From: Lophium mytilinum
Taxonomy: Eukaryota > Ascomycota > Dothideomycetes > Mytilinidiales > Mytilinidiaceae
Length of the DNA: 64,000 bases
NCBI GenBank assembly: GCA_010093605.1
Contig: MU004181.1
Location: forward strand, 1,736,001 to 1,800,000
Direction: 5' to 3'
Position numbers and translations under genes: made by a program. The stretch's first letter is position 1; the number at the start of each line of letters is the position of its first letter. Below, in pieces: positions 22,306-23,185 of this stretch. Below the pieces are notes generated by a model. The model worked only from the letters and a program-made list of their open reading frames with translations, ran no database searches and had not been told where the DNA came from.

Positions 22306-22449
22306 GGGCACGGCATCCGAACGCAGGACCCTCGCCTACGCCAGCGGCGGCATGCCTGATGTCCTCCGCCATTCGAAACTTCAAAACAAGACAGAAAAAG
22401 ATTTTGAAGCTACTCTTTGATAAAGCGTATCATCCTTAGTGCAGGGGCC
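22306..22449 (-). pseudogene. truncated inverted copy of U6 snRNA exon 2
   Basis: Read on the minus strand, this begins at GGCCCCTGCACTAAGGATGA and matches U6 exon 2 of the nearby gene through GCTTTATCAAAGAGTAGCTT. It then matches the 3' flank, including GTAGGC and TGCGTTCG. Upstream similarity stops abruptly at the GGCCCC, so the ATTAGCAT start of exon 2, the intron and the whole first exon are missing. Differences include GATGATACGC for GATGACACGC, an interrupted T-run (CTTTTTCTG) and a roughly 20-nt insertion downstream. It therefore cannot make a functional U6. The two copies form an inverted repeat about 0.6 kb apart. Confidence 0.85.
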
Positions 22450-22871
22450 GCGGTTTCGCCAGTGAAAGGTGTATAGGATGGACTTCCTGTGAAAGGTAGT
22501 CTTGTGTGGGCTGGGAGCTGGACGCTGGCCCTACCACCAGCACAAGGATGATATCGGAAGTACGTCTCTACTCTGGGTCTCCCTTCTCATGCATAGCATG
22601 GTCCTAAGCGACATCACGGAGAAGCGCATAGTCCGATTTCGTCACACATGTTGTCGTGATGCCGGTGAAGCTGCCGCTAGTGGGAGGGATGTCCTCGTTC
22701 GCGGTACAGCGATGGAAAGACAACATCTGGAAAGATGCGAGACTGTCGCATAGGCCGAGGAAACGCTGCGCGAGAGGAAGGATCGAAAGCCTAGGGGTTA
22801 TGCGCTTTGCAAATCTCGTTGACGAGGCTTGGTTTGATGTGGTGTGGTGGGGAGGTCTCGAGTGGTGAGGG

Positions 22872-22906
22872 CTGCGGGCGGCTGGCGGCTGGCGGCTGGC
22901 GGCTGG
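22872..22906. repeat. GCTGGCG short tandem repeat
   Basis: Four to five head-to-tail copies of a 7-bp GCTGGCG unit lie about 60 bp upstream of the U6 gene. Low-complexity slippage repeat. Confidence 0.8.
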
Positions 22907-22965
22907 CGGGGTAGATTTACTGCGCCCCGCTTCAGTACTTAGGTGGCTTAATTTTCTCCGCCTTC

Positions 22966-23120
22966 GCCTTCGGGCATTTGGTCAATTTGAAACGATACAG
23001 AGAAGGTGTGTACCATCCCCCCCCCATCACTCAGCTTCAAAACTAATATCTTCCAGATTAGCATGGCCCCTGCACTAAGGATGACACGCTTTATCAAAGA
23101 GTAGCTTCAAAATTTTTTTT
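22966..23120 (+). ncRNA. U6 spliceosomal RNA with an mRNA-type intron
   Basis: Exon 1 runs from about 22966 to 23005: a GCC-TTCG-GGC 5' stem loop, then TTGGTCAATTTGAAACGATA and the ACAGAGA box. A 51-nt intron (23006-23056) follows, with a GTGTGT donor, ACTAATA branch site and TTCCAG acceptor. Exon 2 starts ATTAGCATGGCCCCTGCAC at 23057 (AGC catalytic triad), continues AAGGATGACACGC (internal stem loop) and ends in an eight-T pol III terminator at 23113-23120. The intron falls exactly between the ACAGAGA box and the AGC triad, so U6 must be spliced to work. Such introns are known in fission yeast and some other fungi. The exact 5' end is estimated from the stem loop. Confidence 0.92.
23113..23120 (+). 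terminator. pol III T-run terminator of U6
   Basis: Eight consecutive T follow the U6 3' end, the standard RNA polymerase III stop. Confidence 0.85.
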
Positions 23121-23172
23121 ATGTTTTATTTTGAAGTTCTGGAATGTGGTCGGCGGCGTAGGCAAGGGTTCT

Positions 23173-23185
23173 GCGTTCGAATTTC
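23173..23185 (+). promoter_or_regulatory. candidate downstream B box for U6
   Basis: GCGTTCGAATTTC resembles the TFIIIC B-box consensus GGTTCGANTCC and lies about 55 bases after the T-run. A downstream B box is known for yeast SNR6. The related sequence TGCGTTCGGATGCC occurs at the equivalent place in the truncated copy. Confidence 0.45.

Follow-up and report, generated by a model that had tools for sequence, protein, structure and literature searches.

Genes for the spliceosomal RNAs U1, U2, U4 and U6 are interrupted by introns in the genome of Lophium mytilinum, in the case of U6 at one and the same site in 7 of 21 copies, including the copy located in the 64-kb stretch of DNA analysed here (the window). 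With a probability of roughly two in three, we think that these introns are removed by the spliceosome, that the U6 copy in the window is nearly silent, and that the introns arose by reverse splicing and were then redistributed by conversion. U6 introns in fungi are already known, as a first-pass annotation of the window had stated and the literature confirms; what appears to be new here is the set of introns spread over U1, U2, U4 and U6 in one genome. The annotation was right about the U6 intron, which is real, but had missed this wider set.

Rfam covariance searching of the 64-kb window yielded U6 as the only RNA family at gathering level, with a plus-strand match to RF00026 at 22966-23116 (61.4 bits versus a cut-off of 44, E 4.7e-13) that spans the full model (1-105) with an insert of 51 nt and bears out the identity assigned earlier to the gene. 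All U6 hallmarks are present, i.e. the ACAGAGA box, the AGC triad, the 5' hairpin and the T-run (Table 1), the last of these at the very place where a terminator had been annotated. The insert begins 2 bases past ACAGAGA and ends 3 ahead of AGC, just as the annotation had placed its spliceosomal intron, and runs from GTGTGT to CTTCCAG with a branch-like ACTAAT (23042-23047) whose branch A lies 10 nt from the intron end. It thus has the GT-AG ends, the RCTRAY branch and the spacing (6-36 nt) of a fungal U2-type intron. In light of excerpts of a study of fungal U3 introns (PMC5832005), which give the donor as GTRWGT in nearly two thirds of them, the branch as RCTRAY and the branch-acceptor distance as 6-36 nt, we note that donor, branch site and spacing of the U6 intron all agree with the reported patterns. 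Excision of the 51 nt yields GAAG|ATTAGC, the sequence found in intronless siblings, and the conserved product is likewise regained at the junction in all seven intron-bearing U6 copies. We infer that this is an ordinary U2-type intron, whose predicted removal by the spliceosome would restore an exact U6.

Table 1. Features of the U6 locus and its partner, numbered from the first base of the window.
Feature	Position	Strand	Description and basis
U6 exon 1	22966..23005	+	5' hairpin GCC-UUCG-GGC, 5' strand of telestem, ACAGAGA at 22997-23003; Rfam match and sequence
Predicted U2-type spliceosomal intron, 51 nt, GT-AG	23006..23056	+	Sequence; 6 further U6 copies have a homologous intron at this position
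U6 exon 2	23057..23116	+	AGC triad at 23060-23062, ISL/U4-pairing region, 3' strand of telestem; Rfam match
T8 run, Pol III type terminator	23113..23120	+	Sequence
Degenerate B-box-like site GTTCGAATT	23175..23183	+	At +58 after the gene
Upstream 60 bp without TATA motif	22906..22965	+	Comparison with 20 other U6 copies
Partner, inverted U6 3' half	22398..22452	-	DNA match and sub-threshold Rfam match

Searching the whole genome (43.18 Mb in 24 contigs) revealed at least 21 U6 copies above the Rfam cut-off, a lower bound taken from the best 47 of 2177 candidates scored, and a DNA search added a single fragment, the partner of the window copy. Among protein fragments, one of EF-1alpha in the window had its best matches in the PDB chains 1f60 and 5o8w, and one of Prp8 in 9l5r; the genome appears to be of a filamentous-ascomycete type. 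The same-site intron is present in seven of the 21 (L022, which is the window copy, L023, L024, L026, L027, L028 and L029), while the other 14 are intronless and all have a TATA motif. Four of these intronless copies (L009-L012) have exactly the sequence that splicing would produce from the intron-bearing L023 and L024. The first-pass annotation had concluded that a spliceosome cannot work until its own catalytic RNA has been spliced, and had named beforehand a genome search for intronless U6 as a check, with an intact intronless locus as the first half of what would speak against it; 14 intronless copies were found, and this first half thus holds. As intronless copies exist and four of them equal the spliced product of their sisters, the supply of U6 need not rely on splicing, and the conclusion is unsupported for U6.

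Within the window copy, exon 2 matches positions 39-100 of the commonest intronless U6 form with 100% identity, the stretch that pairs with U4 is likewise identical, and 2 of the 40 positions of exon 1 depart from that form. Its CGATAC is also found in L015 and L016, which differ elsewhere. These two copies have a telestem altered on both strands (TTTGGAAC with GTTCCAAA, and TTGGAAAC with CTTCCAA), which suggests that they are functional variant U6 genes. Five further intronless copies (L017, L018, L020, L021 and L025) have altered ACAGAGA boxes yet retain TATA motifs, and may be pseudogenes or variant U6 genes; another, L019 (C7:859525), contains an internal T8 run that is expected to stop Pol III. 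The genes for U6, U2 and U4 crowd into a few regions, on contig C4 (about 49-740 kb), C23 and C1 (about 55-532 kb), with eight of the 21 U6 copies on C4 and three on C23; the 16 U1 matches described below are spread over 10 contigs. We looked for a tRNA-rich or compositionally odd cluster in five stretches of 10 kb, four of them near snRNA genes (C4, C23) and one on C1, and found neither: no tRNA in any of the five, and a GC content of 0.51-0.55 compared to 0.52 in the window.

The core of the U6 intron matched the genome seven times at up to 3 mismatches, in each case in a U6 gene, and its reversed control once. When the seven copies with the intron were compared in pairs, they differed on average by 0.21 in the 5' part of the intron and by 0.06 in its last 30 nt, as opposed to 0.014 for exon 1 and 0.006 for exon 2 over its first 45 nt. 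The exons thus appear to be kept while the intron drifts, with some constraint on its branch and acceptor end, as selection on the spliced product, or conversion of it, would leave them. Intron presence required 4-6 changes on five trees (gene body; body and flanks; upstream; downstream; both flanks) of thin support (1-4 starred branches each), against means of 5.2-6.1 for shuffled labels, and since 107-335 of 500 label shuffles were as low as observed, intron presence is unclustered over the U6 paralogues. One starred branch (99/97, upstream tree) joins the intronless L019 with the intron-bearing L023 and L024, and in the body tree the intronless L014 groups with the intron-bearing L026 (92/97, unstarred). 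The simple reading of this scatter would be conversion, either between paralogues or from cDNA. Separately, the U6 intron and the 3' end of U6 have AGCTTCAAAA in common, a match of 10 nt that was equalled in 7 of 5000 intron shuffles. A role of this sequence as a decoy for the telestem was considered and rejected: the predicted probability of its pairing with the 5' strand was 0.00-0.31 over the seven copies (at most 0.06 in six of them), and the precursor of the window copy folded no better than shuffled sequences (z 0.88).

The flanks of the window copy set it apart from its paralogues. With search patterns that, like those for the U1, U2 and U4 introns below, were composed after inspecting the sequences, a TATA motif was located at -29 to -31 in 20 of the 21 U6 copies, the exception being the window copy, whose upstream 60 bp contained none. 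A B-box-like site was detected within 41 nt downstream of 18 of the 21 copies and none for L017 and L026; the B box that the annotation had thought plausible downstream of the window copy corresponds to a weak, degenerate B-box-like site (GTTCGAATT) at a distance of 58 nt. In three trees built from flanks only, the end branch of the window copy was the longest or among the longest (upstream 0.66, downstream 0.72, both flanks 1.31), with the gene body nearly unchanged. Having lost its TATA box, the window copy probably makes little or no U6, which would come from the siblings that have promoters.

The broken copy reported nearby is indeed there: a DNA match at 22398-22449 on the minus strand (C1:1758398-1758449), extended to 22452 by a sub-threshold Rfam match (25.5 bits, E 0.039), corresponds to an inverted 3' half that lacks exon 1 and the intron. 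Its likeness to the gene comes in two blocks, the first of 82 nt (90%) and reaching 23146, the second of 28 nt (89%) at 23155-23182, and covers about 65 bp of 3' flank beyond the gene end. As the likeness passes the T-run and continues into the flank, DNA duplication fits better than retrocopying, and we rejected a retrocopy origin of the window copy. We consider it rather probable that the window copy is a decaying pseudogene, whose intron and intact exons would be remnants without a role, perhaps refreshed by conversion, a view compatible with our main explanation. The missing TATA motif, unique among the 21 copies, the degenerate and distant B box, the long end branches and the adjoining broken 3' half all point in this direction, whereas the near-perfect exons and the undamaged intron termini and branch site do not.

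The same genome contains introns in U1, U2 and U4. For U2 there are nine matches above the Rfam cut-off, seven of which are split by a first intron at CTCTCTT|TGCC. A second intron, at GTAGTATCT|GTTC and directly after the GTAGTA that pairs with the branch site, is present in three (L046-L048, with differing flanking bases in L048); this second site is uninterrupted in five and degraded in L049. L047 retains the 3' part and acceptor of intron 1, and a search for its 5' exon found none; L045 is intronless and diverged, with an altered 5' region. All six U4 matches above the cut-off, from the best 41 of 2089 candidates scored, are split in the U6-pairing stem, five of them after CAAG or CATG and ahead of GGCAT or GGCTA, and L050 at GTG|CAAG, 4 nt away; two of the U4 introns have GC-AG ends and one has the donor GTTCGT. 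The 16 U1 matches (63.5 to 29.9 bits) are all under the Rfam cut-off of 69.5: eight have an intact, contiguous ATACTTACC, four lack the ATACTT start, and four (L078-L081) are split as ATACTT|ACC inside the sequence that pairs with the 5' splice site, with the exons of L081 joining to an altered sequence, ATACTTAACACG. No intron was found in the three U5 matches, all of which are contiguous. The 20 introns of U1, U2 and U4 are bounded by GT-AG or GC-AG, are 51-68 nt long and, in 19 cases, have CTAAC or CTAAT starting 14-18 nt before the end (TTAAC in L050); their splicing would regain the expected sequence in most cases.

In the split U1 genes, CTAGCG lies at -62 to -67 relative to ATACTT in three of four, compared to -62 to -71 in all eight intact genes, and TATATA lies at -36 and -42 in two of four, compared to -39 in four of the eight. 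As these upstream elements are spaced alike in split and intact genes, transcription of both likely starts at the same place, which would give the split U1 an apparent first exon of 6 nt.

Several other elements recur around these genes. Searched with a broad pattern, 29 of 31 U1, U2 and U4 genes (L041-L055, L069-L084), but none of the three U5 genes, proved to be followed by a common 3' element of the form CATTGA-N-(5-bp stem, CTTGT-like loop)-N-GAAGAAGA. The two strands of its stem vary together (CTCGC/GCGGG, CTCAG/CTGGG, CCTGC/GCAGG), and it is likely a signal for 3'-end formation. Upstream, many of the same U1, U2 and U4 genes have in common an element near GTTAAAC..CTAGCGCTGATGAGTCA that is a candidate for a Pol II snRNA promoter element. 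One U5 copy, L057 (C4:82780-82886, minus strand), ends in a T-run followed by GTTCGAGCC, like the U6 genes, and is possibly a Pol III type U5 gene or a hybrid pseudogene.

To judge by computed pairing for U1 and U4, and by the general roles of U2, the introns lie within or next to regions through which these RNAs bind the substrate or another snRNA. Joined U4 exons pair with the commonest U6 form at -25.3 kcal/mol and U4 exon 1 by itself at -14.9, a value that none of 500 shuffles reached, while the unsplit U4 precursor still pairs with U6 at -19.1 through exon 2 alone. Joined U1 pairs with the consensus 5' splice site at -11.2, compared to -2.2 and -3.8 for the separate pieces. As for U2, the region in which intron 1 lies is one that in other organisms pairs with U6. 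The branch-site duplex of U2 gave -7.1 with or without intron 2, its helix unbroken.

The most likely origin of the introns would be that excised introns, by accident, reverse-splice into the snRNAs held in the spliceosome core; the snRNA so altered would then be copied into the genome, and the intron would afterwards be moved or removed by conversion, with a paralogue or cDNA of the spliced RNA as the donor. Reverse splicing is the published explanation for the U6 intron of Schizosaccharomyces pombe, according to excerpts of PMC10484740, and intron movement through RNA is, in the passages seen of PMC6726248, said to be documented in Saccharomyces cerevisiae. The intron positions in the present genome agree with such an origin. 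Several observations run against our main explanation, namely that U2 intron 2 leaves the branch-site helix intact, that unsplit U4 retains a pairing with U6, that none of the three U5 copies has an intron, that all U1 matches stay under the Rfam cut-off (although half of them have an intact ATACTTACC) and that the trees are thinly supported. Moreover, a general 5' bias would produce the clustering without reverse splicing into the core: the U1, U2 and U4 introns are all near the 5' ends of their RNAs. U3, although no part of the spliceosome, shows the same preference, with 133 of its 138 introns located in the 5' half (PMC5832005), and the argument from intron sites is thus weaker than it looks.

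It is a serious possibility, somewhat short of even odds, that the introns are old, were once common to all copies and have been lost singly through cDNA of spliced snRNA, with no recent gain. All seven U6 introns are homologous and occupy one site, four intronless U6 copies equal the spliced product, and U2 site 1 (7/9) and U4 (6/6) are near saturation, as such a history would leave them. The limited occupancy of U2 site 2 (just 3/9) and of U1 (4/16) argues against it, as do the two U4 sites 4 nt apart, which hint at a second insertion or at sliding; and the counts of changes do not separate gain from loss in this one genome.

Introduction of the introns by introner-like elements, or by copying from intron to intron among the snRNA genes, appears unlikely. 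We compared 24 introns, including four of the seven U6 introns, in 225 cross-family pairs, and found that the site-1 intron of the U2 gene L048 resembles three U4 introns (2, 20 and 3 of 20,000 shuffles as good); among 24 candidate introns of the window, by comparison, the top score was the 10 of the U6 intron itself, followed by 8, versus 20. Corrected for the 225 pairs, however, the best of the three falls to about 0.02 and the weakest to about 0.2, in sequences that are rich in C and T, and the likeness is marginal. The U6 intron was found in U6 only: the near-identical copies in many unrelated genes by which introner-like elements are recognized were not found, its core occurring seven times and always in U6. 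Introner-like elements of fungi, including Dothideomycetes, resemble the present case as recent intron gain in ascomycetes (PMC4457414) but differ from the U6 intron, for which no copies outside U6 were found.

We give still less credence to the idea that the introns are kept as regulators, i.e. that unspliced snRNA is poor or inactive and that splicing capacity so feeds back on its own output. Unspliced U1 would lose most of its pairing with the 5' splice site (from -11.2 to -3.8 or less), unspliced U4 would lose the share of exon 1 in pairing with U6 (from -25.3 to -19.1), and split and unsplit genes exist side by side for U6 and U1; intron presence is nevertheless scattered over the U6 paralogues as if neutral. 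Finally, a promoter element inside the U6 intron, as reported (going by a title) for Schizosaccharomyces, whose introns match a B box, is improbable, for although GCTTCAAAAC is kept in all seven introns and is near the B-box pattern, it departs from the B-box consensus at two positions, a better B-box-like site lies downstream of 18 of 21 copies with or without intron, and 14 copies are intronless.

Comparable introns are found in other fungi. The U6 intron of Schizosaccharomyces pombe was reportedly described by Tani and Ohshima in 1989, and U6 intron insertion is said, in the title of a 2016 paper by Canzler, Stadler and Hertel, to have happened many times in fungi; judged from that title, the U6 intron described here is a member of this kind. 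An intron in U2 of Rhodotorula hasegawae was, again going by a title, reportedly found by Takahashi et al. in 1993. This basidiomycete yeast reportedly has introns in U1 and U5 as well, so that several of its snRNAs, as here, would contain introns of the mRNA type; it is not known to have a U4 intron, and in contrast to it U4 is split in 6/6 and U5 in 0/3 of the copies reported here. The S. pombe intron resembles ours in being mRNA-type, in a Pol III gene, near catalytic nucleotides and thought to stem from reverse splicing (portions of PMC10484740 and PMC8917221). Unlike in that species, only 7 of 21 U6 copies have the intron here, 14 are without it, and U1, U2 and U4 are split too. The fungal U3 snoRNA introns are again alike in being normal spliceosomal introns of a small structured RNA with mixed paralogues (8 genomes mix intron-bearing and intronless copies) and differ in that U3 is no spliceosomal RNA, and, as of 2017, frequent interruption was known for no small structured RNA other than U3 and U6 (PMC5832005). 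A literature search, conducted mostly outside subscription journals, found no report of introns in U4, or in U1, U2 and U4 together.

The self-dependence that had been proposed for U6 may, as far as this assembly shows, hold for U4, because no intronless U4 was found. The joined 5' region of U4 had no match at up to 3 mismatches in a pattern search of the assembly, and no intronless U4 was among the matches listed in the Rfam model search (best 41 of 2089 candidates); as an intronless U4 would be expected to outscore the split ones, U4 appears to have split genes alone. The joined 5' region of U2 had one match, the intron-bearing L046 read through its acceptor. All U4 and all canonical U2 genes found being split near or inside a pairing region, one may ask whether the spliceosome is strictly self-propagating, so that new U4 and U2 are made only with the help of pre-existing spliceosomes, an idea that we regard as doubtful but worth stating. 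If it were true, the loss of every active spliceosome would be beyond repair for a cell, and inheriting the genes alone would be insufficient: a working particle would have to be passed on with them. U1 would add to this that the reader of the 5' splice site is itself assembled by splicing in 4 of 16 loci, from an apparent first exon of 6 nt that would challenge views on minimum first-exon length. The set of introns, together with the intronless paralogues of U6 and U1, offers a natural experiment on the old proposal that reverse splicing left these introns behind as scars, and raises a directly testable question: can a spliceosome be restarted without a pre-existing spliceosome?
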